Assembly (NCBI GenBank): GCA_921293015.1
Contig: OV121087.1
Location: forward strand, 35,385,235-35,449,234
Direction: 5' to 3'
Origin: Phorcus lineatus
Taxonomy: Eukaryota > Mollusca > Gastropoda > Trochida > Trochidae
DNA length: 64,000 bases
Part shown: positions 9,996 through 57,164 of the stretch, piece by piece
Layout: each line of letters begins with the position of its first letter
How positions within the stretch are numbered: the first letter of the stretch is position 1
Made by a program: the position numbers and the translations under genes
The notes under the pieces: model-generated
Databases searched by the model: none
Told to the model about the DNA's origin: nothing
The model's input: only the letters and a program-made list of their open reading frames with translations

Positions 9996-10925
9996 AGCTC
10001 ATCAGACTTTTGATAGAAATAGGTTTTGTGGTTTAGACCATGGGGTCATGGGCAGTGTAGGAAAGATAGCCTGTCCCAACGTCCGAGTTATTCACAATCA
10101 AATAAAAAAGGCCCATTGCCCATTTGGGGTCAAGGGGTCACCGAACCTACAATTCAGAATCCCCATTGTCCAAGGAGTCTACACACAACTATTAAGCTAT
10201 CAAGACCTTTTGGAACTGGAGAAGAAGATGAAAGTAGGATTTTAAGGTTTTGACCCCTGTGACCCCATTTGGGGTCAAGTGGTTACCAAACCTACAATTT
10301 AGAATCCCCAGTGTCCAAGGAGTCTTCACACAATTTTTCAGCTCTCTAGACCTTTTGGAACTAGGGAAAAAGATTAAATTAGGTTTTTTAGGTTTTGACC
10401 CCTGTGACCCCATTTGGGGTCATGGGGTCACCAAACCTACAATTTAGAATCCCCGTTGGCCAAGGAGTCTACACACACCTTTTCAGCTCTCTAGACCTTT
10501 TGGAACTGGAGAAGAAGATGAAAATAGGTTTTTCATGTTTTGACCCCTGTGACCTCATTTGGGGTCATGGGATCACAAAATCTACAATTTAGAATCTCCA
10601 GTTCCCAAGGAGTCTACACACAACTTTTCAGCTCTCTGGACCTTTTGGAACTGGAGAAGAAGATTGAAATAGATTTTTAAGTTTTTGACCCTTGTGACCC
10701 CATTTGGGGTCATGGGGTCACGAAATCTACAATTTAGAATCCCCATTTGCCAAGGAGTATGCACATAAAATTTCAGCTCTCTAGAGTCATTGGTTCTGGA
10801 GAAGAAGTCGAAAAAGTGAAAAGTTTAGGGATGGACGGACGGACGGATGGACGGATGGACGGATGGACGGACGCCGGACGCCTTGCCATGCCATAAGCCC
10901 ATCAGGTCAAGACCTGATGAGCTAA
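9996..10925. mobile_element. Pearl-like / Helitron-like non-autonomous element A
   Basis: Parts in order: AGCTCATCAG at 9996-10005, a tandem array of a 145-bp core (10121 to about 10820), a GGAC/GGAT tetranucleotide microsatellite (about 10831-10873), then a palindrome ATCAGGTCAAGACCTGAT (10901-10918) followed by GAGCTAA. CTGATGAGCT at 10914-10923 is the inverse of the left end. Core repeats beside an ACGG-type microsatellite match the architecture of bivalve 'pearl' elements; a hairpin just before CTAA fits the 3' end of Helitron-type elements. Exact borders are inferred. Confidence 0.6.
10121..10820. repeat. 145-bp tandem repeat, five copies
   Basis: CATTTGGGGT recurs at 10121, 10266, 10411, 10556 and 10701, exactly 145 bases apart each time. 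Each copy carries CTACAATT(T/C)AGAATC, CCAAGGAGT and GGAGAAGAAG-type blocks. The short open frames across the array shift from copy to copy because 145 is not a multiple of 3, so it is not coding. Confidence 0.93.
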
Positions 10926-12421: not shown

Positions 12422-12437
12422 ATGGGGGAAAAAGAAG
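12422..12437 (+). CDS. Gene 2 first coding exon, MGEKE + one base
   Basis: ATG in a good context (CAAAATGG: A at -3, G at +4), five codons, then G|GTAGGT donor. The leftover G joins AG at 36068 to make Glu, so the phase fits. It lies in the window's clearest CpG-bearing segment. It is very short and 23.6 kb from the next exon; a different first exon, or a start at the Met in exon 2 (36076), cannot be excluded. Confidence 0.5.
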
Positions 12438-35700: not shown

Positions 35701-38700
35701 TTCTTTTCTTCCTCAGTAACCTTTATTGCAAGTGAAACACTTTCTCGACTAAAATGATTTATGATTTGTGGCAATTACAGTAATTTGTGAAACAGCGACA
35801 TTGTATAATTGGAAGACCGGAGTGCCTACACCAGTACGCTGCGCACATGTGTCTTAGAAGACAGAAATCGGTTAGAGATGTAACACGATATTTTCGGTAA
35901 AAAAACGGTGTCCGTATTGCAGATTTTCATCGCTAAGGGGGTTAAAAGAACAGAGAAATATTGGCCCTTCGAAACCGTTTTCATTGAGGAAGATATGACA
36001 TGAAAATAACACTGAAAATACGTTTCATGTCATTGATATTAACTTTTCATAATTGACATTTCTCCAGAGATCGTGATGACGGCGATGAAGAAGAATGGAC
36101 GAGCCATGATGCGTTTGGAACGGAAGAAGAAGGACGAAATAAACTTCAGCAACATCCATCACATCGCCGGGGGTCCTTACAAGGGCATTCTTGTCAGCAA
36201 AACTGCAGAAGGTAAGGCCTTTTAAACCATATATGATGGGACTATGAAGAATTCCTTATTTTATACATGTAGTGTACTGATTTTGTTATTAATGCAACAC
36301 CGTCATTTTATGACGTCATATCACTGTGACGTCAAATGCTTCATGATGTAAGGGAAATGTCTTAAATGTACTGTCAAAATACTTTATCAAAGGAGTTATC
36401 GTTTGATTTGTATTGGAAAGGTTTGGTTACAAACATGTCATTGCATAACGATGAGTTGTTGTTTTTTCAAAATTGTCTTTTTGTCCTCACTAATGCCGTC
36501 AAATTTCCCAACCTATCATATTTGAGCGTCAAATCAAAATTAATTTATATCATTTGTTAAGAATATGTAAATTATGATCTTCAAAATGAAAGGCATAGTT
36601 AGATTCATAATATCCATCATTCGAATATCATTCACCGACCTTGTTTAATGATACAGGAAACTGGAGGCTATTATTAAATGTAATCACTCCACATTGAGTT
36701 TGACCTTTAGTAATCTATTTGATGCCAAAAGTTCCAGTGCCAAATACCATTATCTGAACTAATGATATCCTGCATCAGTTGCCTTCAGAACTTCTATGCA
36801 CTGTTAACCTTTCTAAAATAGTCGAGTATATTACAGGAAAAGTAACAACACCAAACATTATGTCAAGAGTACCTTGTGGAAAGCATCAAGATTTACACTC
36901 ATCAAAAGCCGACAAAAACAATGTCAAAAATAAAAATTTGACTTTATGTAGAAAAACTAATTTTTTTTTAAATTAAAGCAATGCTTAGTTGAATGTGTCA
37001 TTACGATATTTCATGGAGATTCAAATATCTAAAAAATAACACAGGTGTAGGAAAAAAATGTATAACCGCGAATGATTTATGCTTGATAGTTGAAAAAGAC
37101 GCGAGGTTGCAAAATCATGATAAAACGCATGAATAAATCACTTACTGCTACCGCACTACATTGTTTGTCTGTCCTATCTTCACGCCATCTGTAAATATTG
37201 CATGGATTTGAACACATGTTTATTGTATAACATTCGCAACTGGCGAGAACTTCTTCAATTGAAGCGCATTTGTTATAAACGTGAGAACCAGTTCAGAAAA
37301 ATCATGGCTCTCTGAAAAGGTAATTTTAGAGTTGTTTTAAAACTCCGATTTAAGATGTTGATAACATTCTGTACAATTAAATAGTTTAAAGCAACGTGGT
37401 ACAACATAAAAATAACTTCATGCTCAAGATAATGTCAGACTATTTAATGCCAGAATCTATTACAGTTGCTATTACATTATATAATGGGTTATTATACGCC
37501 CCAAGAACAGCGCGTATCCTGCTATGTGCAACTAGATATAGCAAATAAAAATATCCAGCTCAGACAGTCTTAGCACCCAACGGACCGCCTCAAACGATAC
37601 AGTCCGAAAATTTACATGGCGAAGAAATCGATGATTAAAAAGTTAATAATATTCATTAAGAACAAACTGAAAGTAAATATTCTTGAGATAAAACTTGTCC
37701 CCCCCCCCCCCCCCCCCCGGAACAATTCGTATCGTATGATAAGTATCCATATTGGCTGCTCATTAAAACATCTACATGTATGTCCCATGAGAGATTCCCG
37801 TTTTTCTCTGTTTCAAATGCCTACATAGAAGCTATTTTGGATATAAGCTATGTCACACAAGGGTTGCCGAGGATGGTTTCATGTTGGGACATATTGTAAA
37901 AAAGAGAATATAGAATGATTCGAATATGTCAAAGGTTTTTAATAGTTTTATAATATTGAGATTCCGAAGTACTGACTTTTGATAAAAATTACCTTTTGAA
38001 TGCTTGGGCAATACGTAAGATTCCAAATAGGTGGAAAACATGGAGCGTGTAAGTTTGACGTCATCGCATGTATCAGACAGTTGCTTGATTTTTATTGAAG
38101 ATGATAAATTGTCAAATATTTGTCATTTGGCGATGAATATGAATGTCAAGTGTCATAATTTACTGAAATTATGGTGTTTTAACAAATATCCAATCCATAC
38201 AACATTTAAAAATCAAAATACTTGATGTCACATAAAGCACTGACTGTTTCACAGAGCTGGACACTGTGAGACCGAGTGAGGGACGAATCGAGTTCATGGC
38301 CTACCTCTTCATCAAGACAGAGGGACAGAGGGAGGCAGTTCAGGTGAGGGAGAAATATAACTCAATCTCATTACATAGATAATAATTTCGTTTCTCGTTA
38401 CGCAGAATATATCATCTGCCTAACGAAGTGAAGCGCAAGTATGATCGTGTTTTAATGAGATTGAACATTATATATGTAAACCGCTGCAACTCCGTCCTAT
38501 ATACACGTTCTCACGGTAAAGGTTATTACTGCATATCAAATTTGCATACGCCTTGAGGTCCACATAGTTTGTCGTTTTGCAAAGACTCGTATTCTCAATG
38601 TCATGATTAGATAACCTGCAATTGTTTTCGAAGTTATTTGTGGTCAATTGAAAGATTGATATTACATGAAATTTAATCGTTTGAAAAAGGATTTTCTGAC

Positions 38701-41700
38701 AAGGGAAAAAAAATATTACGCTAATCTATCTCTGTTCTGAAAAACCGATTTCAGCAACACAATCTTTTAAGTATTTTGAAACTCCATTGTCCCAACAGGA
38801 CCTATGGACGCTGCAGTTCTGGTTCCGAGGCTCGGCTGACGGAGTGACCAAGAAAAAGGCATTCACAGACTACTTCCAGGAACTCGTGGCACCGGGCAGT
38901 CTGCCTAAGAGTATGTACAGCTTATTACACCACTAGGGCATGTTATGTCCATTGTTCTGACAGGTTGATTTTCTACGTAACTACACGAACAGAGGTTGAT
39001 ATGTATTTGAATAACTCCCGAGTATGCCATTTGACGTCTCCAATTAGGGGATATTAACACCTTTAATGAATGTTATGTCAAATGTTCTGACTGAAATCAC
39101 CTTGTACCTGCTCGACTGACGTGACAGTCAAAATTTCGAAGTTTTACAAATAAGAGTAGAAAGGAAGAGTTGAAGCGCGGTTCGAACGCGAATCTTCGGA
39201 ACAGCGAGCACCGATCTTATCCATTCAACCACGGAGACTGCGATGGTGATAGGGGTGCATTTTGTCTTGTCATCTTCCTTCATGTTGGGTTTTTAAATAC
39301 TATATATACAGTAATAGTAAAAGATGTGAAAACGTTATTTTACGATGGGAAAATATTTATTTCGTGTTTTCCACGTGGTGTAATCTCTGTCAGATACCTT
39401 ACGTCCTCGGCTTCGCCTTGGACTTGGTATCTTCCCTCGAAAATTATACATCGATAATTTTCAAATATTGTCTCTCGGCTTAGCCTCGAGCCAATATTTG
39501 AAAATTCCCTCCGTGATAATGTTGTATTTAAAGCAAAATATGAAAACGATGTGCTAATAGTTTTATCAGATGCCATACGAAAGGTTATGTCTAAATACCC
39601 TAGGGAGGTTATGTGGAACGTTTTAATTTAAAACTATTTAAATTGATCCTAATTGTTAGAAAATGTTATCATACCTGTCAATAAACAAACCCACGTGGTG
39701 TAAGACGTTTAGACACCCCATCACGGGAGTTATGGATTAAACCTCTCGACTTCGTCTCGAGGTTATAATCCATAACTCCCTTGACGGGGTGTCTAACCTT
39801 AACATACCCTGAGCAGGTTTCAATGGTCTTTGCGAGGGATCCGACAATATTGAGATTTAGCAACAACTTACCATTAGATTAACCACCACTGCCTTGTCTT
39901 GCCGTAGACTTCCCACATTCGTAGTCTCGAATTTGTTTTGAATGAATGTTCGCTATTCTTTACGACAAAGAAATAGGGGAGGGGACACATTAGTTCCCTT
40001 AGGAATGTGTTTGTTTCATGATATGATTACATTTATGTTTAAACATGATTTGGAAAGGATTCCGTTATTCAAAATGACCCAGAGCTGTTCCTTTAATGGT
40101 TTAGATACTACATCTATAATATTTGCCTAAAAATATTTAACATACCTTGAAATTGGGATAGGCCTAAGGATAGGTTCATCTTTCAATACCTGGAATGTAT
40201 CAAAAAGTATTAATTATACCCCCGCCTTACAGCGTAAGCGGGGGTATATAGCGTTCATTCTGTCCGTCCGTCTGTCTGTCTGTCCGTTGGCCGTCCGTCA
40301 CAAATCTTTGTCCGGAGCATATCTCCTAAACTATACATGCTAAACTTCATACACTTATCAACCATGATCCTTAGATGTGCCTTTTGAGGGTTAGACCAAC
40401 AAATGATTTTTATTTTTTGCGGTTTCCATGGAAACATGACTAAAACAGTGACTCTATGACCAAGTCCTTTGTCCGGAGCATATCTCCTAAACTATACATG
40501 CTAGCTTCACCAAACTTCATACACTTATCAACCATGATCCCTAGATGTGCCTTTTGAGGGTTAGACTAACAAATGATTTTTATTTTTTGCGGTTTCCATG
40601 GAAACATGACTAAAACAGTGACTCTATGACCAAGTCCTTTGTCCGGAGCATATCTCCTAAACTATACATGCTAGCTTCACCAAACTTCATACACTTATCA
40701 ACCATGATCCCTAGATGTGCCTTTTGAGGGTTAGACCAACAAATGATTTTTATTTTTGCAGTTTCCATGGAAACATGACTAAAACAGTGACTCTATGACC
40801 AAATCCTTTGTCCGGAGCATATCTCCTAAACTATACATGCTAGCTTCACCAAACTTCATACACTTATCAACCATGATCCCTAGATGTGCCTTTTGAGGGT
40901 TAGACTAACAAATGATTTTTATTTTTTGCGGTTTCCATGGAAACATGACTAAAACAGTGACTCTATGAACAAGTACTTTGTCCGGAGCATATCTCCTAAA
41001 CTATACATGCTAGCTTCACCAAACTTCATACACTTATCAACCATGATCCCTAGATGTGCCTTTTGAGGGTTAGACCACCAAATGATTTTTATTTTTTGAG
41101 GTTTCAATGGAAACATGACTAAAACAATGACTCTATGACCAAGTCCTTTGTCCGGAGCATTTATCCTAAACTATACATGCTATCTTCATCAAACTTCATA
41201 CACTTATAAAACATGATCCCTAGATGTGATTTTGAGGGTTACACCAACAAATGATTTTTATTTTTTGCGGTTTCCATGGAAACATGACTAAAACAGTGAC
41301 TCTATGACCAAGTCCTTTGTCCGGAGTATATCTTCATAACTATACATGCTATCTTTACCAAACTTCATACACTTATCAACCATGATCCATTGATGTGCCT
41401 TTTGAGGGTTAGACCAACAAATGATTTTTTTTTTTTGCGCTTTCCATGGAAACATGACTAAAACAGTGAATTTATGACTAAGTCCTTTGTCCGGAGTATA
41501 TCTTCTAAACCGTACATGCTATCATCACCAAACTTCATACACTTATCCATATTGGTGCGTCTCTTGAGGGTAAGACCAAAAAATTATTTTTATTTTTTGC
41601 GTTTTACATGGAAACGTTACTAAAACAATGGCTATCTGACAAAGTGCTTTTTCCTGAGCATATCTCCTAAACTATACATGCTAGCTTCAACAAACTTAAT

Positions 41701-44700
41701 ACACTTATCAACCATGATCCCTAAGTGAGCTTTTTGAGGGTAAGACCAACAAAGAATGCCAGATTATAGTTTGAAGCGGGGATATGTGAGCTGTGCTCAC
41801 TTCTTTACTTGTTCTCTATGTGACTGTTGATGAACCCATCATGAACATATGCCTAGATGTACGAAATAGCTTCAAAATATAATAGTTGCCTTGGATATAT
41901 GTCTTCAATAGTAGTATGATAGCTTGACTCTGTGTGTCATTCACTTGGACATCAAAGGTTAATAATAAAGACTGTTTTCAAAACAGAATTTATAATCTTC
42001 TTCAGTCTGGATTTGAGAGGTGAGGGCGATTTGGGGTTTAAAGCCGCTTTCAAGAGTATTGCACTGCTAGTATTGGCTGCTAGTATTAATGCAGAGAGAA
42101 AGTCCGCAACACTATTGTGTCTTTGCATTGCGATGAAACCTGCGAGCCACGACTTCAACTAACGAAGCATGGGCTCCATACTGAGCTTAAGATCAGTGCA
42201 GCTTTGCACCCATATCTGCTTGTACAACAGTTCTCTACTGCAGAAAAAGTTCCTGAGCCCCTGGCGGAATCCGAACCACTGACCTCTTGATCCCGACCGA
42301 ACGCGCTAACTACTGCGCTATCCCGCCCAACTGCATTGAGATAGACCACTCTACACATGTATCACTTGTTCAAAAGGAAACGTTTCCCTACATGATTTGT
42401 TACCCTACAGTAAGACTCTATGAATGTCAACACGAAAAGGTAATGAACCGCATGCCCATTTTGAAATTAGATTTTTAAAAAACCCTTCAAGCCCCTGTTG
42501 TTAATTACCACTTTCGTTTTTATTCAGATTACATCGGTTTCGTGAAACGTGCCCTTGTGCTGTTAAGGAACTATAAGCTAATTTCAAGAATAGAATTAGA
42601 GGTCAAACCAGACGCAGAGGCTGAACCAGATGAAGATATCCCGCCCGTCCGTGAGTACCCGTCTTCTGAATCTTTCATTTAGCTCTCAAAAGTTTATATT
42701 GTGATAGGTTGAGATCAAAACTTATGTCATTCCCAGACTTCCTTTTTTTCAGATTAATTTTTTCGGTTTTGAGAATTTTTAGGCTTTTCTCATTTGTCAG
42801 TATCAAATGCATTTTTTTGTAAATGACTAACAATCAAAAGACACATCATTACATTGAAACTTTCAATCTTCTTTTAATCATCTCTCATTTATTTATCAAA
42901 TCATGTTGGTTGAAATTGCATGTACACTTTTCTTTGAAAAGATACCCCGACGTTGGAATCTTTAACGTGTTTCAAGAGTAAACGTTGTTGCTATATACTT
43001 GATGACCAAAGAGGACATATATATCTTTATAATGTTACACCAACAACTGATGTAAATCAAATATCGTGTTGGGCTCCAAAAATTATTTTTATTATCATGC
43101 CAATGGTGTAAGGGGTACAGCTACAGCTCTGCAGCAACTTCAATAGTGATCGTCACATCAACATACATCTTACTCTTGTATTTCAATCTGTTCACCCAGA
43201 AAGCTTCACGTCAGTCTTCACCCCCAACACTTATGCCTACCAGTTCGTCCCGGAAATACAAGTCAATAACAAAGACTTCATCACCTTCAAGATCAAGGCT
43301 GCGGGAGACGCTCACATCGCCCTTTCGGCTGTCTACGGTGACGTTGACAGGAAGACACACGAGATTGTCCTCGGAGCGGATAATAATTCCAAATCTCTCA
43401 TCCGTGACGGGTCTCTGGGAGTCGTCAAAGCGGAAGCGACAACCGTAAACTTGCTCAGTGAAGATGAGTTCCGGTTTTTCTGGGTCAGCTGGAAGGGTCA
43501 CGTGATCGAGGTCGGAAGGGGAGGCTACTACGGCAAGAATACCTTCCTGAGATATAAGATACCACAAAATAGGCAGTTTAATGTTAACTGTCTGGCTTTG
43601 TCAACCGGAAGGGCATCAAAAGGACAATGGGAATTTGCTGAAATTTTGGGTAGGTTTTGACTTAATTAATGTTTTGATGTTCGAGAAAAAAGGAAATGTA
43701 GCCTATCACACATTATTTTAGATGATGTGTTGTGAAGTTATATATATCTAGATTTTCTCATATTTCATTTAATTAGAAACTATTAGGATCAACACGTTGT
43801 AGATTAAGGATTAGAGATTTGAGATATTATGTAGTTATAACGTAGACAAGTAGCCCTATATTGATAGATTTAGATGCATTTTAGCAGGTAGGTTTTTTTA
43901 AGGTTTTCTCTCTTTCATAATAGTTGTTGGCCATGAGAATTTAACGGATTTATTATTTGATAAGTGCCGTAAGTAAAGTTTAACTTTAAGGAAAGAGAAT
44001 AGCATATGAAATATCGTAAATATACTATCGAGTTTTATACTTTTTGGATTATTTCGAACTATCGAGTTACAAAGTTGCGCCTGTTTAGACCAAAGTTTCT
44101 CACAGTGAATCAAGAAAATTTTGAAAAGGTGGGTTGGAATCTGGGGGAGTTCTAAAGAAAGGAAGGGTAGAGATCACCCACAGGGAAGACACTTTTTACA
44201 GGCACTTTTTAAAAAAGAATTGAGGATGGGTCGTGGGAGCAGTGGCCTCTTATATGTGAAAGCTTACAAAACTTCTCATAAATAAAAAGTAACTTTGCTT
44301 ATATTACTGCGAAATGGTTTTCGATTCAATGAGAGCATAGGAAGTATACTGAGCACGTTAAGTTTCAATCCATAAATATAAATCAGCTCCATGAATAATT
44401 AGTTTCACATTTGTACACATTCATTAAATATAAAATCGTCAATGAATAGTTTTAAATCTCATGTTAGCTCATTTTGTATGTGCATGGCTTAATAGTTTAT
44501 ACCTTCTTGCTGCAATCTTATCTTCCACACCCACAGACGAGTTGCCTGTTTGGAGAAGTTACTCAGGTATTACACAGTTGTCTCCCTTTTCAACTTTCTT
44601 TTCTTTATGTGTCGTCTCCTTCCTCTCACTGTTTTTGCCTTGTCTTGCATGTATATGGTCAATCTCTGAGTTGATTTTAATATTACCATAAATATACATT

Positions 44701-47700
44701 TGTTAATCCTAATTAATGTATTTCTGAAAGATGAAGACAAAAATTGTTTCGGGATACAAAACTAAAATAATATGTGGTGTAAATTCAAAGCTCGTAACAC
44801 TGACAAATGACTGTAAAGTAATGTAAAAATACCTAACAAAAAGGATATCTGAATGTTAACCAACGTTTTAGGAATTGTTTTCTGTTGAATTGTTCCGCTT
44901 AAAGTGATGTCATGTTTTTGTTTGTGCATGTTCTTTCTGTTATATTCTATTTTTCATGATCTTCGGTTGTTTTTTTGGTCGTTGTCTTTCTGTATTTGTC
45001 CGTATATAATGATTCTAACTTGCATTCAATACAAAATGATTTTCCACTTTCTATTTTGCATATAATATAATTAAAATTTGCCGTGATCAAATAATGAAAT
45101 ACTTCAGACTTAAGTTAATGATATATTTCTATGAAACATCATATCAAGTATTTTTTCGCAACAACATCAACAGAAAGTAACTTAATGATCTTTGCTGTCG
45201 TTACGACTATTAAAGAGTAATTAGTCAATTCTTGTATATTTGTAAGTGAATAAAGTATTTACATATTTATTGCATAAGTATTTACTTCTAGTACAGTCAT
45301 CAAGATATCTTTTCTTCCATAGAATATCGTTGTACTCAAATAGCATCCTTATTTTTAAAAAAGTACCTGTAATATGAAGTTTGAATGGTATGAATAAGGT
45401 ATTTCATATTTCATAATTTCACATGAATTTGAAAACTAATAAAATTTGAAATTGATTGTATACCACCATATGTATTGCTTGTATATGTATGTTCAATATC
45501 ATATTTGATATGTATGCATTGATGAGTAATATGAATCCTTGGAAATATAACATTTTTTTAAAATAAGAAATATTTTCTTACCTACACGTACATTGCAGAC
45601 ACATACGACAAGGAGAGAGAGAAAAAGCGAGAGAAGATCAGGATGTGTTTGTTATGGCTGGCCAAGAAACAGCGCATGATCAGTTGTCTGGAAGATGCGT
45701 ACCCTAACCCAGTAGCTGTCTCCGAACTGCTCAAGTAAGAATTTACTACTGAGAGTTCGAAGTGTTTCTTATATAACTTACTGCCACCTTTTTTTTTACT
45801 TTTGCGGCTGCAGATCCGGATTGTGCCCCACCCACCAAAAGTGTTCGTATTTCAGTAAATGTGGAGAGTCGAATGTTTAAACTTGATTATCTCTTCTTAC
45901 CTTTCTCAATCTAATTATTAAGCTAACTTTCTTGTGCACACAGATTCTTTGATCCAGAGAAATAATTTCAATAGTTGTACTTAAGACTTCCAACCCCACC
46001 AAAACGAAAATCCTGTATCCACCCTTAAAAAATATTTTGTTTAAAAATATCATAGGTAATGACGAAATCTATCAGTTGAATCAAGAAAGAGAAACAATTC
46101 TTAAGTGACATGCATAAGAAAAGCAAGATGTTCTGGTTAACCACTGTAGCATTCCATCTGATAAAGGATGTAGTATAGACCCGGACACGACATGTAATTT
46201 CAGAATAAAGACTTCAGAAAATTTGCTTTTCTTAGAAGTAGGTTTTGGTAACAAATAATAACCAAGGACCTGTACTATGTGACGAACGTATTCAGGCCTG
46301 TGGATAATAATGCCTCTTACATTACAGGAAGTGTAAGATAAAGATGTCCGACTCAATAACGGCGGTAGTGATGCTAAACGAGATGCAGAAGAAAGGTCTG
46401 ATACAGGAAGTGGAGAAGAACATCTGGATGAGGATACAGTCAGGGGAACAGGGCGCTCAACATGGTGAGTTTAGAAATATCGCCCAATTGTAACTGAGGT
46501 AAGGTGATCTGCGTGTTGACCTCTGTTTTGAGACAATAGTCGTCACAAGAACCCATACGCTTTCATATATGTCGAAATGAATACTTTTCATCTTTGGTAT
46601 AGCACGTCAAATCGGCTGTTTCATATTCAGCTACAAATAAATTCATTATAAGTTTCAGATGAATTGAAATTCATACAATTGAACAATATTCCCTTATTTG
46701 GAAACAATATTGTTTGAAATGTCGACTGGCTCTTTACCAAAGTGATTAGTTGTACATTGTGTTACACTCAAATATTAAGTTGTACAATGTGAACACATCC
46801 TAAAATTAGCTTTGCTTTGTATTGCACATCATATAATCAGATTACAGTGTGTAACACTTCAAATGATACGTTGTACACTGTGTGACACTTCAAATGATAA
46901 GTTGTACACTGTGTTACACTTCAAATGATAAGTTGTACACTGTGTTACACTTCACATGAGAAGTTGTACACTGTGTTACACTTCACATGAGAAGTTGTAC
47001 ACTGTGTAACACTTCAAATAATAAGTTGTTTATTGTGTTTCACTTCAAATTATCAGTTTAACATTCTTAAAATGTTAAGTTACCCTTAGTGTGACACATC
47101 TAAGCACATGAATATTTGCACAGTGTAACACTTCGAATGACTATTCATGCATTGTGAAACTTCGAATGTTTGATTCACAATATTTGACATTTCGAATGAT
47201 TACTTAAGCCTTGTAAAATATCATATCAAATGATTAAGCGTTTTGTGTTTTTACTTTGAAAATCAAATGCACATTGTTTAATTTTTTAATGATCAATTAA
47301 AGATTGTGTTACATTTTGAACGGTTAAATGAAAAAGGTATTTTGATTGTTTGGACATTACGATGCATTTAAAAAAGTTAAGTTATGTTGATAAGATATTC
47401 ACAGCGTTGTTATTGAGAACCTGTTCCTTAAAATTTGCAAAATCCTCCCAAGAACAAATCGTAAGGCTTAATGCATATCGGTTAAAAGGTGTGATAACAA
47501 TTTCATATTTAAAACAAATTTTCTCATGCTTCCATAAATTAATAAATTTCACTCTGCAAATGATTTCTTCCTTTACCAACCAGAGATCAAGTTAGTGAAG
47601 GAAATTCCGACCCTGACAGGCAAGGAGCAACCAACCATAGGGGTCATCACGGGACTCTTCTGTGAGAAACTTGCAGTAGACGCCATGATGGAAGATAAAA

Positions 47701-50700
47701 CAACATATGTCAAGTTCAAAACTGAAGGTAATAATATTAGTAGTATTACAATATTAATAGTACTTTTTTTTTTAATCGGTAAAATTTAATATGTAAAACA
47801 ATCGTTTATACATATTTCAATGAATAATGCCTACTTAAATGATGACGTGTCAAACAATTTGGATATTTTTATATAAATTTAAGATCATTAGCTTACGATT
47901 GTGACAAGTAAAACTAAAAATTTAAGGTGGATGACTTTTTTAATGGTCAATCATAGACTGAAAAAGAATGAGTTATGTTTGAATTATTACATCACTAATG
48001 ATGAAATATGAACAAGTTCAGCATTTATCACATTCAAAGAATGGTCCAAAGAATGAAAATTTCAAAGCGCATACTTTTAAGAATTTATTCTAGTGGCCAT
48101 AAAACTTATCTGATAGCTGTTATAAATACAATCTCTTCAGCTCTTCTATAATGATTATGATATTCATCATATCAAACTTCTCAGCAGAAATTCTGTACTG
48201 TATTAATAATCTTTTGCCTCAACATCTACAAGAATACATAACGCCTAATGGTGAAATATGAAATATCACATTAACGTTATTGTCATATGGCAGGTTCCGG
48301 TACTTCAATTGGTAAGACAAAAGTGTTGTGGAATAGATGTTGTCAAAAGTCTATTTAAAGTTTTGGTTTAAGTATTTCGATTCTGTGTTTTTCTATGATT
48401 TTAGTTTGTGTTTTGTGTAAATTAAGCTTTTTCTGTGTTTTCAGTTGCTGTTGTTATATTTGCTTTTTGTTATCTTTGTATCGTTACAATTATCTTATCA
48501 ATACTTTTATTTGTACTTTATAGGAAAAGGCAAGTTACCAAGGGGCAGGTCATATATACCCGGCATGCGTCTTTATTTATTAGTAGAGGAAAATACTTCT
48601 TGAAATATGTTAGTTTAATATAAAAAAAGTTAAAAAGTTGCGTGTTCTTGTCAGCGGCATCAAAATCAAGTCTTTAAACGACAACTTTCGGCGCTCATCA
48701 GGGCTTTAGGCTTCGTTCGACGTAAACCTTAGATATGTTCGACTTAAATTCACACATTTTGTAATTTCTTCTTAAGGTTTGAGCGTGCCAGGGTTTCATT
48801 CCCTATGCATATCTTACATCAAAATACGATTTTCGAAGTTATAATTTTATCTCAATGTCGACATGTCAGGCATGATTGGGATGTATCGTAATCACAATTT
48901 AACGAATTGTCTTATATGACATGATAAATGACATCTCCCTCATATTCCAAGCTAGTCTTAATATGCACATAACAAACATTTTGATTCAACATTTTGTGAT
49001 TTACCTTGAATGTATAATAGTCATAAAATTACAATGCTAAATTAATGTGTACTCAAAAATTAATCGAAGCAGTTATCAAATTGTAAATTTTAAGTCGACC
49101 CAGCCACTAAATATAAGTATCACTGAATGCAACAATCCTCGACCATTTATGATAATCCAAGTAGAGCTTGATGACGTACAGAGTCAATAGCGTTCTTAAA
49201 ACACGAACGTCAAACTTGTTACAACAACACCTCAAATTCAGCTTAGCAATTCAATCAACTTATGCTTTATTCTGTAATCACTATTGTTTTTGCATGAGAA
49301 GGTTACGTAGTAATACTGTCTCGGAATGAGTAGTTGTTTAGCTCACGTGTTACAGAACTTCATAGGCTACACTTAGATATTTCAAAATTCAATAAGAAAT
49401 ACATTTTGCATGAGAAAGTAACGTAGTAATTCTGTCTCGGAATGAGTAGTTGTTTAGCTCACGTGTTACAGAACTTCATAGGCTACATTTCGATATTTCA
49501 TAATTCAATAAGAAATACATTTTGCATGAGAAAGTTATGTAGTGATACAATCTCGGAATGAGTAGTTGTATAGCTCACGTGTTACAGAACTTCATATGCT
49601 ACACTTAGATATTCTTAAATCAATAAGAAATACATTTTGTAAAGTCGTGCCTGCAAATCACCAGTCGATCATCAGCATAAAACAAGCTAAATGTCTGTGA
49701 AATTACTTTCTTGTGTGTGAACAGCCACGTATATGCTTACTCCTTACTAGATGTTTAGTCGGAATGAAGAAGGACTTTCATATGCATTGGTATATATTGT
49801 AAGCCCTAAAAAGACTATATAATCAAAGGCGTACATAAGCATAACAATCTCATTTAAATCAGTATTGCTAGTACGTTTCGGATCTGAGCACCGTTCAAGA
49901 AGGATCATGTCAAGTGACCTTTGCTATCCAGCCAATCAAAGACGAGATTTAAAAGCTATCGGTACTATTTAATATTTTGGCTGTTTCAATTTATTGAAAT
50001 TTAAAGTAACAGACAAAGGCACCTGAAAAGACCCATGTAGGAGAGTACTCTGGTCAAAAAAAAACCTGCGAGGTACGAGCAAAATGTTGTACTTGATTAA
50101 AATGAGATTGATGTAGAGATGCGTTTCTGCATAATCAGTATGAAATAACAGACTATACGATTGTGGAAAAAGGTTTTTCCAATTGTTACCTTACGTCACA
50201 CGAACTTAATGAATAACGTCTTTTCATCCCACAGTTCATGTATTATTCATGTAAATGTAAAAATCCCCATCGACATTGGATTTTCCGAATATATTACCTG
50301 AGCCTACGGTTTATTACAGGTGAATCCCAGGTGTACACGTGCGGACGTATCGGAAATCACAACGTGGTCTCCACCAAACTGTCACGGCTCCAGGGAGGAC
50401 AGGGCGCAATGATAGCTGCTGAAAATACCGTCACAAGATTACTTGGTAAGTACTTTAAATACTTTTTGAAATATCAAGTTGGTTTTCCTGATAAAATTAT
50501 AAAACAACACTTCACTCAACCTCATCCCATAGACCTATGAATAAGTGGGTGTTTTGAAATAAAATTGGAGGGAATGGTCCTTTGAGATTCCCTTTTATGG
50601 TTAAAATTCTTATAAATTATTATTTCTTGATTAAATTTGATAAAGTTTCATAGTATACGTACATCTAAATCATATATACATGCAAGGCTTACTCTTGTTT

Positions 50701-51428
50701 CAGGTACGTTCAACAGAATCGAGCACGTGTTTCTGGTAGGATGTGGTGGCGCTGTGCCCCACTTTTCGGACTTTTCGAAGCATGTGCGTCTCGGAGACGT
50801 TGTGGTGTCTATGCCGGTAGATAGTAGTGGTGCTTTGTACGTGCACTGTCAGAAGGTCGAGAAGATTCCGGGCACGACAGGATATAGCTACTGCACACGC
50901 GCATACGATGCACGTGACAAAACCCTCCAAGCAGCTGTCACGAACTTACGCAAAGCATGCGACATTAGACCACACGAACCGAAGCCATGGGATCTGTTCA
51001 TCGAATCAGGCAAAGAAAAGCTCAAAGCGGAAGAATCAAACTTCCATCGTCCAAACCTTACAACAGACAAACTGTATGGTCCCAAACCGGATGGTACGAT
51101 CGTTCAATTCGACCACCCACGCCCACGGAGCATGTACGGAAGTACGTATCGGGAAGGACAGGTCCACATCCGGTATGGAGTTATCGGATCAGGCAAGATG
51201 GTTGCTAGGGCACAGGACCTGCGGTTCGACTTCTCTCAGATGAATAACGTGAAAGCGTTTGATGCGGAATATGATTCTGTCCTTGAGTCCCTGGAAGGAA
51301 ACCGCTGTGACAGTTTCCTCATCATCAGAGGTATGAGCGACTACGTCGACGGCTCCAAGAAGGAATGGCAGCCATATGCGTCGCTGACCGCTGCTGCCTA
51401 TATGAAGTCGGTTATCCTTGCTCTGTAG
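12422..51428 (+). CDS. Chimeric protein: Methyltransf_FA domain + winged-helix-like segment + PNP/MTAN-type nucleosidase/phosphorylase domain
   Basis: Twelve exons join to 2232 nt (743 residues plus stop): 12422-12437, 36068-36211, 38255-38343, 38799-38910, 42528-42650, 43200-43649, 44537-44566, 45599-45734, 46328-46464, 47584-47727, 50320-50445, 50704-51428. All phases agree (mostly phase 1). Residues 1-161 are unrecognised. 162-311 match Methyltransf_FA (EIVLGADNN 216-224, FWVSW 255-259, VGRGGY 266-271). About 325-405 look like a winged helix. 413-743 are a phosphorylase/MTAN-like fold: IGVITGLFCEK 431-441, LVGCGGAVPH 513-522, VRLGDVVVS 530-538, a Glu in FDAEYDSV (E691) and an Asp in RGMSDYVDG (D715), spaced like the catalytic Glu/Asp of MTA/SAH nucleosidases. 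No signal peptide or membrane segment is seen, so cytosol or nucleus is likely. PNP-type domains are known effectors in bacterial and fungal NLR/STAND-type conflict proteins. Substrate, activity and an immune role here are inference. Confidence 0.85.
15663..15751. repeat. Fold-back (palindromic) MITE-like element
   Basis: Arms TTTTCGAAGCT...GCTAAGATAGTCGTA and TACGACTATCTTAGC...AGCTTCGAAAA are inverse copies with one short mismatch region, around a loop of about 26 bases. No coding content. It would form a strong hairpin if transcribed with intron 1. Confidence 0.8.
17397..17668. repeat. Diverged direct duplication, about 160 bp apart
   Basis: Two segments share TAGGATATTA, GTCAAAA(T/C)CTGAC, CTA(T/C)GG(C/T)TAC, AGGTTAATGA and CTTTCATGG in the same order (from about 17397 and about 17561). 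Substitutions are numerous, so it is old. Confidence 0.65.
19321..19600. repeat. About 99-bp tandem repeat, three copies
   Basis: TGAC.T.GTCAATGTATAAGA recurs at 19321, 19420 and 19518, each copy followed by ACTAGG, ATTCTTACTCG and GCTCCTGTAATAACCC. The reverse-strand open frame across it is an effect of the repeat period. Confidence 0.88.
21065..21555. repeat. About 235-bp tandem duplication
   Basis: CAGACGCTCATATCATG occurs at 21299 and 21534. The preceding 230 bases match in order: GCAAAATAATG, CACTGAAAAACA, ATTTGAATGA, TTAAGTAAAGC and TCCAATATAGAAACAAA. About 80 percent identity by eye. Confidence 0.8.
21801..21819. repeat. Poly(G) run of 19
   Basis: Nineteen consecutive G on the plus strand in intron 1. 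The length is prone to sequencing error. Confidence 0.85.
21900..23600. repeat. Diverged tandem array of a roughly 680-bp unit
   Basis: AATTTCCACT(T/-)TCCGTTTCC-type blocks occur near 22101, 22777 and 23470, spacings of about 676 and 693. The first two units also share 'GATGACGA.A.AAACT', 'TTTACTCAA/ATTCAAAGTTTAA.AG.TTATCAATG' and 'TTATTCATTCAT' in the same order. Strongly diverged. Confidence 0.55.
25709..25801. repeat. Short dispersed repeat, copy 1 (contains a CTTTGATC site)
   Basis: Starts GAAACACCTTAAT, then CATCCAGGTGAATTGATCAG, CCTTTGATCC, TTACAGGTATAG and CATCCACGT. Two further copies lie at about 28291 and 28527. CCTTTGATC is a TCF/LEF-type sequence; function unknown. Confidence 0.75.
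26632..26771. repeat. Compound (TTA)n / (TAG)n microsatellite
   Basis: An interrupted TTA run followed by an uninterrupted TAG run of about 13 units. The long Ile/Leu open frame on the minus strand is only this repeat read in frame. Confidence 0.95.
27475..27900. repeat. Tandem repeat of 120-144 bp with an inverted repeat in most units
   Basis: CCATACTGTAA recurs at 27487, 27630 and 27750, with a degenerate fourth copy at about 27894. The first three units also hold TTTCACAGTATGCTT, whose CAGTATG is the inverse of the CATACTG, giving a hairpin around ATGATGTAGTAAA-like sequence. Copies 1-2 are nearly identical over their first 90 bases. Confidence 0.8.
28291..28376. repeat. Short dispersed repeat, copy 2
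   Basis: Same order of blocks as the copy at 25709: GAAACACCTTAAT, CATCCAGGTG, ATTGATCAGTC, CTTTGATC, ATTACAGGTATAGGAAG and ATCCAC. Confidence 0.75.
28527..28617. repeat. Short dispersed repeat, copy 3
   Basis: GAAACACCTTAATTAACCTC, CATCCAGGTGAATTGATCAG, GTTACAGGTATAGGAAGTAC and CATCCACG match copies 1 and 2. The TCF-type site is changed to CTTTAATC here. Confidence 0.75.
28801..28905. repeat. (CATA)n microsatellite with CAAA interruptions
   Basis: A CATA run of about 100 bases. The Tyr/Val/Cys/Met-rich and Ile/His/Thr-rich open frames on the two strands are artefacts of the period. Confidence 0.95.
29561..29622 (+). repeat. Gastropod SINE-like core, fragment 1
   Basis: GTGAGTGAGTGAGTGAGTTA, then TTTAACGCCGCTTGGGCAAT and ATTTCAGCCATTAGCGGCG. 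Reverse copy at 61741 and a worn copy at 53854. A GTGAGTGAGT plus 'CGCCGC...CAATATT' block of this kind is abundant in vetigastropod genomes (from memory). Confidence 0.7.
32688..32811. repeat. 31-bp tandem repeat, four copies
   Basis: Unit TATTTCCTTTTATGCAAAAT + TCTTTCGTGGT, four head-to-tail copies with a single change (CAACATTC in the first). Near-identity implies a recent expansion. Confidence 0.95.
36068..36211 (+). CDS. Gene 2 exon 2
   Basis: Acceptor TTTCTCCAG and donor GAAG|GTAAGG, 144 nt, phase 1 at both ends. Encodes EIVMTAMKKNGRAMMRLERK, then a mixed segment with HHIAGGPYKGILVSKTAE. No family recognised. More GC-rich than the intron around it. Confidence 0.82.
37699..37718. repeat. 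Poly(C) run of 20
   Basis: Twenty consecutive C in intron 2, otherwise AT-rich. The rest of intron 2 (36212-38254) shows nothing else nameable. Confidence 0.85.
38255..38343 (+). CDS. Gene 2 exon 3
   Basis: Acceptor CTGTTTCACAG and donor CAG|GTGAGG, 89 nt, phase 1 in and phase 0 out. Encodes LDTVRPSEGRIEFMAYLFIK and a Gln/Glu-rich end. Intron 3 (38344-38798) is AT-rich with nothing identified. Confidence 0.82.
38799..38910 (+). CDS. Gene 2 exon 4
   Basis: Acceptor TTGTCCCAACAG and donor AAGA|GTATGT, 112 nt. Encodes DLWTLQFWFRGSADGVTKKK, then KAFTDYFQELVAPGSLPK, which reads like a helix and turn leading into the next exon's helix. Confidence 0.82.
39171..39243 (-). other. tRNA-like / pseudo-tRNA sequence (possible SINE head)
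   Basis: On the minus strand, GTCTCCGTGGTTGAATGGAT has an A-box-like order and GCGTTCGAACC is B-box-like at tRNA spacing. The acceptor arms do not pair well and the anticodon stem is poor, so a working tRNA is unlikely. Lies in gene 2 intron 4. Confidence 0.4.
39371..39510. repeat. Fold-back cluster beginning CCACGTGGTGTAA
   Basis: Three successive hairpins: AGATACC...GGTATCT around CCTCGGCTTCGCC, GAAAATTAT-ACATCG-ATAATTTTC, and TTTTCAAATATTG...CAATATTTGAAAA around a CTCGGCTTAGCCTCGAG loop. The same CCACGTGGTGTAA start recurs at 39691. Confidence 0.75.
39691..39797. repeat. Fold-back element with CTTCG loop
   Basis: GTTTAGACACCCC and GGGAGTTATGGATT on the left are inverted on the right as AATCCATAACTCCC and GGGGTGTCTAAC, around CCTCTCGACTTCGTCTCGAGG. 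Arms are about 40 bases. Shares its leading CCACGTGGTGTAA with the cluster at 39371. Confidence 0.85.
40214..41795. mobile_element. Pearl-like non-autonomous element B (170-bp core repeat)
   Basis: From left: hairpin ATACCCCCGCCTTAC/GTAAGCGGGGGTAT (about 40215-40246), a GTCC/GTCT microsatellite (about 40259-40300), a tandem array of a 170-bp core (40311 to about 41760), then GTGAGCTGTGCTCAC (hairpin, about 41786-41800). Read on the minus strand it has the same order as element A: array, GGAC-type microsatellite, terminal hairpin. The cores of A and B are unrelated in sequence. Outer borders are approximate. Confidence 0.65.
40311..41760. repeat. About 170-bp tandem repeat, nine copies
   Basis: TCCGGAGCAT (or a variant) starts at 40311, 40472, 40642, 40811, 40981, 41151, 41320, 41490 and 41652; spacings are 169-170 except for the first and last intervals (161, 162). 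Each copy has CTCCTAAACTATACATGCT, AAACTTCATACACTTATCA, TTTTGAGGGTTAGACCAAC and GGTTTCCATGGAAACATGAC. Central copies are nearly identical; the right-hand copies are more worn. Confidence 0.95.
42155..42327 (-). mobile_element. tRNA-derived SINE
   Basis: Reading down from 42327 on the minus strand: GGCGGGATAGCGCAGTAGTT gives the A box (TAGCGCAGTAGTTAGCGCG, 42302-42320) and GGTTCGGATTCC is the B box (42266-42277), with acceptor-like GGCGGGA. An unrelated body follows, containing GAACTGTTGTACAAGCAG. The 3' end is not clear and may run below 42155. Lies in gene 2 intron 4, antisense to the gene. Confidence 0.65.
42528..42650 (+). CDS. Gene 2 exon 5
   Basis: Acceptor TTTTTATTCAG and donor GTCC|GTGAGT, 123 nt, phase 1 at both ends. 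Encodes YIGFVKRALVLLRNYKLI (a helix), SRIELEV (a strand), then an acidic linker (AEAEPDEDIPP). With exon 4 it could form a small helix-turn-helix-like unit; this is inference. Confidence 0.82.
42651..43199 (+). other. Gene 2 intron 5
   Basis: GTGAGT to TTCACCCAG. AT-rich, with nothing identified. Confidence 0.7.
43200..43649 (+). CDS. Gene 2 exon 6: complete Methyltransf_FA domain
   Basis: A 450-nt exon with acceptor CTGTTCACCCAG and donor TTGG|GTAGGT, phase 1 at both ends. It encodes residues 162-311 and carries the marks of the farnesoic acid O-methyltransferase-like fold: F.FKIKAAGDAHIALS, HEIVLGADNN, LIRDGS, EFRFFWVSW, VIEVGRGG and a closing QWEF. In arthropods the founding proteins were linked to juvenile-hormone chemistry, but the domain lacks a Rossmann methyltransferase core and in many animals is likely a binding module. 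One domain in one symmetric exon suggests exon shuffling. Confidence 0.9.
43650..44536 (+). other. Gene 2 intron 6
   Basis: GTAGGT to CACACCCACAG. AT-rich, with no other feature recognised. Confidence 0.6.
44537..44566 (+). CDS. Gene 2 exon 7, 30-nt microexon
   Basis: Acceptor CTTCCACACCCACAG and donor TCAG|GTATTA, phase 1 at both ends, adding ten residues (D/ELPVWRSYS). The flanking exons also splice directly in frame, so it may be an optional cassette. Including it keeps the whole 2232-nt frame open, as would skipping it. Confidence 0.5.
44567..45598 (+). other. Gene 2 intron 7
   Basis: AT-rich, with nothing identified; ends TACACGTACATTGCAG. Confidence 0.6.
45599..45734 (+). CDS. Gene 2 exon 8, first half of the winged-helix-like segment
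   Basis: Acceptor TACATTGCAG and donor CTCAA|GTAAGA, 136 nt, phase 1 in and phase 2 out. Encodes a basic lead (DKEREKKREK), a helix IRMCLLWLAKKQRMISCLED, then PNPVAVSELLK, the start of a second helix. Confidence 0.85.
46328..46464 (+). CDS. Gene 2 exon 9, second half of the winged-helix-like segment
   Basis: Acceptor CTTACATTACAG and donor CATG|GTGAGT, 137 nt, phase 2 in and phase 1 out. SITAVVMLNEMQKKGLI fits a recognition helix and EVEKNIWMRIQSG a wing. The helix-helix-helix-wing order with exon 8 is typical of winged-helix folds; DNA, RNA or protein binding cannot be told apart. Confidence 0.85.
46749..47060. repeat. 31-bp minisatellite in gene 2 intron 9
   Basis: Unit GTTGTACACTGTGTTACACT + TCAAATGATAA, with five near-perfect copies around 46870-47020 and decayed copies on both sides, some reaching about 47200. 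Confidence 0.88.
47584..47727 (+). CDS. Gene 2 exon 10, start of the PNP/MTAN-type domain
   Basis: Acceptor TTTACCAACCAG and donor GAAG|GTAATA, 144 nt, phase 1 at both ends. Encodes PTIGVITGLFCEKLAVDAMM, the first strand and helix of a nucleoside phosphorylase fold (compare 'IGII.AL..E..A...ml'). Confidence 0.88.
48294..48311 (+). CDS. Possible 18-nt microexon in gene 2 intron 10
   Basis: CATATGGCAG|, then 18 bases, then |GTAAGA. It is phase 1 in and out and would insert SGTSIG in frame between exons 10 and 11. The donor is good, but the acceptor lacks a strong pyrimidine tract, and an insert here falls inside the PNP-type domain. Confidence 0.2.
49291..49638. repeat. 116-bp tandem repeat, three copies
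   Basis: TGCATGAGAA recurs at 49291, 49407 and 49523, with GTCTCGGAATGAGTAGTTGT, TAGCTCACGTGTTACAGAAC and CAATAAGAAATACATTTTG in each copy. More than 90 percent identical by eye. Confidence 0.93.
50320..50445 (+). CDS. Gene 2 exon 11, PNP/MTAN-type domain
   Basis: Acceptor TTTATTACAG and donor CTTG|GTAAGT, 126 nt. Encodes YTCGRIGNHNVVSTKLSRLQ and an Ala-rich helix (GAMIAAENTVTRLL). Matches the phosphorylase pattern 'y..GrigghnVV.a....G...Aa..a..ll'. Confidence 0.9.
50704..51428 (+). CDS. Gene 2 exon 12, catalytic part of the PNP/MTAN-type domain and stop
   Basis: Acceptor CTTGTTTCAG, then 241 codons to TAG. Carries HVFLVGCGGAVPHFSDFSKH, VRLGDVVVSMP, a long insert, FDAEYDSVLES (candidate catalytic Glu, residue 691), FLIIRGMSDYVDG (candidate catalytic Asp, residue 715), then EWQPYASLTAAAYMKSVI. 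The order and spacing are as in MTA/SAH nucleosidases and related enzymes, so the active site looks intact. Confidence 0.94.
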
Positions 51429-54685: not shown

Positions 54686-55930
54686 TACGAGGGGATATCA
54701 AAAAGTTTCAATTATCACAAAGAATGTACAAAATGGTCACTGGAGCATAAGTGATCCTTGTCTAGTCCCTGGGTCAACAATAGTCTTTTTCGCGACAGCC
54801 AGTTTTACGTCTGTTGACCAAATAGCACAGTACCCCCTATATTATGGAGAAAATTGAGGCGCGCAATGTAATTAATGTTGTACATTTGCAGGGCTATACT
54901 GCTCGTCAAATTCATGATGAGATTAAATCGGTTTGTGACAATGACAGCCCATCCTATGACATTGTTGTGAGATGGAAAATGAATTTCCAAAGAGGCCACA
55001 TGTCCCTCGCAGATGAGCCAAGAAGTGGATGTCATCAAGGAGGTTGAGACGCGTAACTCTACAAATGATAATGCATGAAACAGGTCTGAGTTATGGCAGT
55101 GCATGGAACATACTCCATAACCAGTTGCATATGTCCAAAGTGTCAGCACGCTGGGTTCCTCGCTTACTGACTCCATTGCAAAAACAGAATCGAAGGGACA
55201 TGTCACGGCAGGCATTCGAGCTTCTGGAACAAGACGAAGAGGATTTCTACAAACGTCTTGTTACCATTGATGAATGCTGGGTCTATCAATATGACCCTAG
55301 ACAAAAGAGATGAGCAAAGAGGGGAAGCATGCTATGACACCACCTCCCAAAAAGGCCAAGGTGCAAAAGTCTGCAGGAAAGGTCATGGTGTCTGTGTTTT
55401 GGGATTGTCGTGGAGTCATCTTGACGGATTATCTAGCTAAGGGTCAGACCATTACTGGAGCTTATTACTGCAACCTGCTGAGCAGGTTACGAGATGCCAT
55501 TAAACAGAAGCGCCTCGGTATGATCACCAAAGGTGTACGCCTGTTAGCTGACAATGCCCCAGCTCACACTTGTCAAGCAGCTGCTGTGGAGGCGCGGCGA
55601 TGTGGCTTTGAAATCTTACCGCATCCCCCCCTATTCACCCGATCTTGCACCAAGTGACTTCTTCTTCTTCCCTGAGATAAAAAAATCCACTTCGTCGATG
55701 TCGTTTTGAGGACACCAATGACATCATTCGAAAGGTGGGGCTTGGTTTTCCATGAAATCAGGGGTCTTCTATTCAGACGGTCTGCGCAAGGTCAAGAAGC
55801 GATGTCAAGAAGAAATGTGTATCTCTGAATGGTGACTATGTAGAGAAGTCTTAAAAACATGAGAACAAAATTAAGTTTGTACCTTTGATATGTGTCTGTG
55901 ATAATTGAAACTTTTCGATATCCCCTCGTA
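54686..55930 (+). mobile_element. Mariner-family DNA transposon, 1245 bp
   Basis: Ends are 34-bp inverted repeats starting TACGAGGGGATATC with one mismatch. TA lies directly outside on both sides (54684-54685, 55931-55932), the Tc1/mariner target duplication. Size is typical of mariner (about 1.3 kb). It holds a broken transposase. The nearly identical ends suggest it is not ancient, although its gene is dead. Confidence 0.93.
54844..55720 (+). pseudogene. Broken mariner transposase
   Basis: Pieces lie in three frames: 54844-55045 (N-terminal helix-turn-helix, with TARQIHDEIK and DEPRSG), about 55029-55313 (with KVSARWVPRLLTPLQKQNRR and the first catalytic Asp in TIDECWVYQYDP), and about 55310-55657 (TPPPKKAK, second Asp in LADNAPAHTC). 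The third Asp (YSPDLAPSD) is in yet another frame after a run of seven C (55625-55631); its distance from the second fits D34D of mariner. Two or more frameshifts and a likely deletion after DEPRSG make it non-functional. Confidence 0.92.
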
Positions 55931-57101: not shown

Positions 57102-57164
57102 ATGGTTGCCCACGTCGACACGATGCATGGGCATGGACATGACCCCATTTTGAATAGCAACACA
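57102..57164 (+). CDS. Possible gene 3 exon 1a
   Basis: ATG in good context (CAAAATGG), 21 codons rich in His/Asp, perfect donor ACA|GTAAGT. An ETS-type site lies just upstream. Confidence 0.42.

Follow-up and report, generated by a model that had tools for sequence, protein, structure and literature searches.

Among the fungal NLRs there are proteins that use a PNP_UDP domain as signalling effector, according to passages of three papers (PMC9815663, PMC10197012, PMC12258605), and part of a review mentions eukaryotic proteins of immune-like make-up that contain PNP (purine nucleoside phosphorylase) domains (PMC11249213). In bacteria, the ATP nucleosidase Cap17 of the cyclic oligonucleotide-based antiphage signalling systems (CBASS) degrades ATP and dATP, as summarized in a review section (PMC12043709; also PMC12499490), and PNP_UDP_1 is also found fused to STAND/NB-ARC, TIR, SIR2, HNH-EAD7 or SNF2 in proteins that we will call conflict-type PNPs (among P0219-P0340 of our collection). 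Here we describe an animal gene that resembles them in part. It is located in a 64,000-nucleotide stretch of the gastropod Phorcus lineatus (GenBank assembly GCA_921293015.1, contig OV121087.1, positions 35,385,235 to 35,449,234), hereafter the window, in which all positions are numbered, and its product combines an N-terminal domain, a Methyltransf_FA (MTFA) domain, a winged helix and a C-terminal domain with the fold of PNPs and of methylthioadenosine/S-adenosylhomocysteine nucleosidases (MTANs). We give a probability of about one half (ca. 0.5) to the reading that this is an intracellular, regulated purine-nucleotide nucleosidase, akin to the conflict effectors, and that the window gene encodes a variant of it to which a lectin-like input was added.

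The likeness to the conflict-type PNPs comprises the PNP/MTAN fold, the Glu, Glu, Arg and Asp positions of the active site, a W-x2-Y-A motif and a profile match along the whole domain. However, the window protein is from an animal and has no STAND, TIR, SIR2 or HNH, its PNP domain has 317 residues versus ca. 264, and the Glu-Met-Glu-Gly of the conflict PNPs is replaced in its family by Asp-x-Glu-Phe/Tyr. Cap17 (PF18178 plus PF01048; P0342) is reached by tblastn from a beetle relative (P0107) and by a profile match, but the window protein lacks a Cap17-like N-terminal domain (PF18178 was absent in its Pfam scan) and has no known link to a CD-NTase. The MTANs provide the best solved-structure match and the same catalytic positions, but only a weak profile match and a different motif. 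The fungal NLRs, which we compare by description and not by sequence, have a NACHT/NB-ARC domain that the window protein lacks. Finally, PF12248 is shared with the arthropod FAMeT and the CPAMD8-type proteins; in the passages available, Methyltransf_FA is combined with DUF3421 in FAMeT (PMC10015273) and named among the domains of CPAMD8 (PMC9363628), combinations unlike the winged helix and PNP domain found here.

The PNP/MTAN-fold domain

The preliminary description of this DNA, made from the letters alone, had proposed an architecture of MTFA domain, winged-helix-like segment and PNP/MTAN-type domain, and this is upheld by Pfam, by the structure model and by the relatives. The structure comparison that it suggested for the C-terminal part was clear: the predicted domain (residues ca. 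427-743) superposes over its whole extent on solved members of the fold, the best matches in the PDB being MTANs and a futalosine hydrolase. A full-length family profile (A1) found nothing in the PDB at E 0.01, and a PNP profile (A2) found seven sequences at E up to 1, which included an MTAN as the best (0.0026) but also a uracil-DNA glycosylase, which is unrelated. The active site looks intact, with four residues of catalytic type, including the two (Glu691 and Asp715) noticed originally. The relevant codons are:

47664..47666, + strand: Glu440, aligned with the Glu of E. coli Mtn (Glu in 60/60 family rows and 13/13 MTAN rows)
51267..51269, + strand: Glu691, Glu of the ribose-binding type (alignment)
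51327..51329, + strand: Arg711 (alignment)
51339..51341, + strand: Asp715, catalytic-type Asp (alignment)
51366..51368, + strand: Trp724, centre of the W-x2-Y-A motif common to conflict-type PNPs (W in 34/34 family, 55/57 conflict and 0/13 MTAN rows)

In E. coli Mtn the first four columns hold Glu, Glu, Arg and Asp, which we take to be its Glu12, Glu174, Arg193 and Asp197, with their roles; the titles of PDB entries among the structure matches name Glu12Gln and Asp197Asn mutants. DeoD and Udp have Arg at column 440, and the Ser of DeoD at column 516, presumably involved in phosphate binding, is not kept in the family. Because of these two differences, of the two activities initially considered a nucleosidase is favoured over a phosphorylase; a purine phosphorylase was set aside, the DeoD/Udp residues being absent.

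An alternative that we regard as having a real, if minority, chance is that the domain binds a nucleotide without cleaving it, a pseudoenzyme or sensor in which a winged-helix regulator, binding nucleic acid or protein, reads the nucleotide state and the MTFA domain is an extra input. The Met that precedes the Glu in Mtn, DeoD and the conflict PNPs is not kept, the winged-helix segment has a net charge of +7, the family stem is long, and there is drift at two of the four positions. In a 60-row alignment Asp715 is present in 59/60 rows and Arg711 in 54/60, while position 691 is Glu in 42 and Asp in 13. This variation is concentrated in the 30 MTFA-bearing rows, with Glu691 in 14/30 (Asp 13, Gly 2, Asn 1), Arg711 in 24/30 (Leu 6) and Asp715 in 29/30, so that the lectin-bearing copy evolves more freely around the sugar pocket, and altered or lost activity is conceivable in some species. 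However, Glu440 is invariant, the 30 MTFA-less rows have Glu691 in 28/30, Arg711 in 30/30 and Asp715 in 30/30, and both the window protein and its paralogue (see below) retain all four residues. The two Gly at position 691 belong to the limpet MTFA-bearing proteins P0026 and P0031 (Patella, Lottia), in which a loss or change of activity is possible.

Regarding the kinship of the domain, the Tribolium relative P0107 was compared by tblastn with 72,556 plasmids, in which 25 records reached E 1 or better, headed by a Sinorhizobium match (3e-5) and followed by HNH-PNP-EAD7 proteins (P0219, 2e-3) and Cap17-like proteins (P0342, E 0.04, with PF18178 at E 2e-65); a PNP-PNP-AAA/STAND protein (P0220) appeared only at E 0.9. 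With the second PNP domain of P0220 as query we retrieved 277 proteins, with STAND, TIR, SIR2 and SNF2 fusions among the 120 listed. The conflict set (of 122 domains excised, 57 were kept, with similarity judged by a rough string measure) was thus gathered with a protein that is itself a weak match to P0107, a possible bias, and the MTAN set (21 of 80 loci kept) was gathered with E. coli Mtn and is mostly from Enterobacterales and Bacillales. Compared by hhalign, a 34-row family profile matched 54 of the conflict domains (the three plasmid-derived ones omitted) with probability 99.6 and score 165.0 over 231 columns, and three random 21-row conflict subsets gave scores of 148.8-166.8 (probability 99.4-99.6). 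Versus the 21 MTANs the values were 40.8 and 35.6 over 95 columns (70.9 and 41.2 with the MTFA-less rows alone, 15.4 and 30.4 with the MTFA-bearing rows). Against single sequences the scores were 101.1 for P0219 and 58.8 (over 78 columns) for Cap17, versus 26.8, 29.0, 22.3 and 15.6 for E. coli Mtn, DeoD, Udp and Amn, respectively. The W-x2-Y-A motif that follows the catalytic-type Asp goes along the same lines: in the family the Y is found in 31/34 and a preceding K or R in 30/34 (33 of these rows hand-picked from 199 with a complete domain, of 218), in the conflict domains the Y is found in 55/57 and a preceding K in 56/57, and in the MTANs F replaces both W and Y in 13/13. An unrooted tree of the three classes has the MTANs on one side (100/100) and the family and conflict PNPs on the other, which is a split and no proof of kinship. 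By profile comparison the PNP domain is far closer to the conflict-type PNPs than to the housekeeping MTANs, which upholds the likeness to conflict proteins drawn in the preliminary description; the trees are weaker.

Several observations speak against a nucleosidase of conflict-effector kinship, besides the drift described above. The Pfam check recommended at the outset was borne out for PF12248 (96.6 bits, gathering score 24.2; residues 167-302 of a 738-aa query) but not for PNP_UDP_1 (PF01048, gathering score 25.1), which had no match in the window protein up to E 5 and passed its gathering score in 2/8 relatives; the identity of the domain is accordingly derived from structure, relatives and profile comparison. 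The conflict set itself also matches the MTANs strongly (probability 98.3), and in Cap17 both the W and the Y of the motif are missing. Support is weak (90/42) in the three-class tree for the branch that unites the family with the conflict PNPs except Cap17, and the stem of the family is long there (2.64). A quick tree with the four E. coli enzymes sets the family next to Mtn and P0220a and away from most conflict PNPs, with a support of 85 that is not starred and a flag for long branches. The PADLOC PN-superfamily model gives E. coli Mtn 54.6 bits, more than the best of eight family members (P0107, 36.7), so this library is unable to separate the classes. Lastly, the Pfam scan of the whole protein showed the MTFA domain and the HTH_69 winged helix only, with no STAND/NACHT, TIR, SIR2, HNH or other known trigger.

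Could it simply be a housekeeping enzyme of methylthioadenosine/S-adenosylhomocysteine or nucleoside salvage with incidental extra domains? We find this improbable. The best PDB matches would fit, and the MTAN model PRK05584 is the best NCBIfam match in four relatives, but at 32.2-38.6 bits this is far under the equivalog cut-off of 169, the Haliotis counterpart P0001 has no match, and the profile likeness to the conflict PNPs is far above that to the MTANs. Moreover, the Phorcus genome contains MTAP-type exons on contig C5 and trimeric-PNP-type exons on C7 (fragments of 50-65 residues, below whole-protein cut-offs). The salvage role is disfavoured because these appear to cover methylthioadenosine and purine nucleoside salvage.

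Exon layout and the MTFA exon

The gene consists of 12 exons and 743 codons on the + strand (12422-51428), with AG/GT splice sites and matching phases throughout. The single 743-codon frame of the preliminary description was right, including a 16-nt first exon that lies outside 42528..51428, an interval that covers exons 5-12 only. Over 743 residues, the product and isoform X3 of Haliotis rufescens LOC124144153 (P0001) share 82.9% identity. The exons, all on the + strand, are:

12422..12437, + strand: exon 1 (16 nt), start codon, MGEKE plus base 1 of codon 6 (pattern match, GT donor, phase 1; same MGEKE start as H. rufescens P0001)
36068..36211, + strand: exon 2, phase 1-1, N-terminal domain, no fold assigned (frame and splice sites; paralogue phases equal)
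38255..38343, + strand: exon 3, phase 1-0, N-terminal domain (frame and splice sites; paralogue phases equal)
38799..38910, + strand: exon 4, phase 0-1, N-terminal domain (frame and splice sites; paralogue phases equal)
42528..42650, + strand: exon 5, phase 1-1, end of the N-terminal domain (frame and splice sites; paralogue phases equal)
43200..43649, + strand: exon 6, symmetric 1-1, 450 nt, the entire MTFA domain (galectin/CBM-like), residues 162-312 (Pfam E 1.4e-27)
44537..44566, + strand: exon 7, symmetric 1-1 microexon of 30 nt, linker (frame and splice sites)
45599..45734, + strand: exon 8, phase 1-2, long helix and first half of the winged helix (HTH_69 E 1.3e-5; model helix 324-355)
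46328..46464, + strand: exon 9, phase 2-1, second half of the winged helix (frame and splice sites, Pfam, structure model)
47584..47727, + strand: exon 10, phase 1-1, start of the PNP/MTAN-fold domain (structure model, structure match, alignment)
50320..50445, + strand: exon 11, phase 1-1, PNP domain (frame and splice sites; paralogue phases equal)
50704..51428, + strand: exon 12, rest of the PNP domain and stop codon (frame and splice sites)

In the 958-Mb assembly we found the gene in a single copy, together with a single paralogue that lacks MTFA, the 39 matches listed being distributed among the window gene (10), the paralogue (4) and MTFA-like stretches elsewhere (25). The model of the paralogue (loci L037 and L038, G000:C17:31795000-31813500) begins at exon 2, without the first coding exon, and is open through 566 residues, with 38.9% identity to the window protein over 553 columns. 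Its exon phases are those of the window gene (1-1, 1-0, 0-1, 1-1, 1-2, 2-1, 1-1, 1-1, 1-end), but where the window gene has the 450-nt MTFA exon and the 30-nt microexon the paralogue has a single phase-1 intron, for which the own-genome search listed no MTFA match; the microexon is absent from the model, although an exon so short could still be present there. We consider well supported that the MTFA exon was inserted into a phase-1 intron, a clean example of domain acquisition as a single symmetric exon. Another MTFA exon on contig C19 (35% identity) also fits 1-1 boundaries, with two donors of similar score. A splice check of ten MTFA loci, a crude heuristic, gave 1-1 as top sites in L018 (the window gene), L034, L035 and L036, a tie between 1-1 and 1-2 in L026 (C19), and other phases in L029-L033, the matches of which begin inside the domain.

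The same contrast is found across phyla. A search with the window protein gave 721 relatives at E 0.001 or better; among the best 120 of the 721 there are full-length MTFA-bearing forms in gastropods, bivalves, cephalopods, a chiton and two nemerteans, and the matches listed include MTFA-less forms of ca. 570 residues from insects, crustaceans, chelicerates, annelids, a bryozoan, a nemertean and molluscs. No deuterostome, cnidarian or nematode member was noticed in the best 120 of 721 and in 120 of 516 rows, many of them without organism, and we do not claim their absence. The six MTFA-less relatives compared all share the N-terminal domain (25-34% identity), the winged helix (20-33%) and the PNP domain (45-49%), the latter being the best-conserved part. 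In a tree of 41 rows, chosen from the listed matches only and with the MTFA columns removed, the MTFA-bearing rows fall on one side of a branch (100/100), with support of 99/97 for the MTFA-less lophotrochozoan rows and 100/100 for the arthropods. This fits a gene duplication that preceded the split of molluscs and nemerteans, with MTFA gained once and losses possible, and by such sequence comparisons the MTFA domain is a late insert into an older MTFA-less family. The database names seen are mostly uncharacterized or hypothetical, and we found no paper on the family in the literature searched, the coverage of which omits most subscription journals; it is apparently unstudied, though already in the databases as an uncharacterized protein. 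The work of Rousset et al. (Cell 2023) on immune ATP nucleosidases reportedly may already include such animal members.

As to the MTFA domain itself, a structure search with the predicted model points to a galectin/CBM-like fold (CBM, carbohydrate-binding module), including CBM66-like, and the ligand-binding or adaptor module suggested originally is plausible on this basis. For the MTFA-bearing lineages, this predicted fold suggests that the ligand is a glycan or a protein. A methyltransferase was set aside given this fold; farnesoic acid methyltransferase activity has never been reliably demonstrated even for FAMeT, according to the passage cited (PMC10015273). The 25 MTFA-like matches elsewhere in the genome are spread over contigs C15, C37, C32, C7, C17, C19, C1 and C11, most of them on C15 (8) and C37 (5). 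In the chiton Liolophura sinensis, isoform X2 (P0018, 1078 aa) is ca. 340 residues longer than isoform X4 (P0015). The additional residues are inserted between MTFA domain and winged helix, close to where the 30-nt microexon sits, perhaps a hot spot of alternative exons.

A galectin/CBM66-like domain with so many genomic relatives might suggest a carbohydrate-linked or adhesion-linked protein that functions through MTFA, with the PNP domain as a structural relic, but we think this very unlikely, as MTFA is a late insert, the form without it exists in arthropods, annelids and molluscs, and the PNP domain is the most conserved part.

The winged helix (HTH_69, PF22979) scores 25.5 bits in the window protein, below the gathering score of 27, which is passed by 6/8 of the relatives scanned (P0001 and P0042 are below). 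HTH_69 had no match in the own-genome search, probably because the domain is split across two exons. A Z-DNA-type winged helix was considered, but its motif failed to line up by eye. For the N-terminal domain, the Pfam scan found no family, an hmmsearch of eight segments against the PDB gave 0 matches up to E 5, and the places in the structure searches were taken up by PNP, MTFA-type sandwiches or (viral library) other matches; its fold is barely probed rather than new.

That the model joins exons of neighbouring genes, as the very long first intron (ca. 23.6 kb) might suggest, is hardly credible given the 743-aa counterpart annotated in H. rufescens, the occurrence of full-length forms in numerous molluscs and in two nemerteans, and the intron phases of the paralogue. 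The open reading frame survey of the window left out bases 13501-25999, where extra upstream exons are possible. Other features of the window are:

10119-10814: tandem array upstream of exon 1, 145-bp unit, 4.8 copies
40306-41753: tandem array in the intron before exon 5, 170-bp unit, 8.6 copies, 90% matches
42250-42330, - strand: look of a tRNA-derived repeat by eye (ARAGORN and Rfam at gathering scores had no match in the window)
54826-55790, + strand: broken open frames with the look of a mariner-type transposase relic (by eye)
57103-57165, + strand: possible first coding exon of a following gene, with ATG, open stretch and GT donor (by eye)

A putative regulated nucleosidase

From the profile likeness and the active site we infer a nucleosidase restrained by the parts upstream of it. 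The C-terminal domain would most likely act on an adenine nucleotide or nucleoside by cleaving the bond between base and sugar, with ATP and dATP as leading candidates, catalysis proceeding via Glu440, Glu691, Arg711 and Asp715. The N-terminal domain and the winged helix would be the ancestral control region that holds the enzyme in check. In molluscs and nemerteans, a duplicate would have gained the galectin/CBM-like MTFA domain between these control parts by exon shuffling, probably adding the input of a ligand (perhaps a glycan) or of a partner that gates the enzyme. Activity, substrate, gating or other regulation and a stress or immune role are all inferred. A bolder version, which we put forward tentatively and consider rather less likely than the general reading, is that of a protostome-wide, cell-autonomous effector that depletes ATP/dATP under winged-helix and N-terminal control with no STAND/NLR scaffold, of bacterial-conflict descent and with an immune or stress role, the mollusc and nemertean version being lectin-gated; its control logic would be new.

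What is new here is the likeness to conflict-type PNPs, the galectin/CBM-like MTFA domain and its gain as a single exon, the spread of the MTFA-less form among phyla and the drift at Glu691. Both the substrate and the control are directly testable on the MTFA-less beetle and oyster copies and the MTFA-bearing snail copies. If the reading of a regulated nucleosidase is true, arthropods, annelids and molluscs would carry a conserved nucleotide-destroying enzyme akin to bacterial anti-phage effectors.
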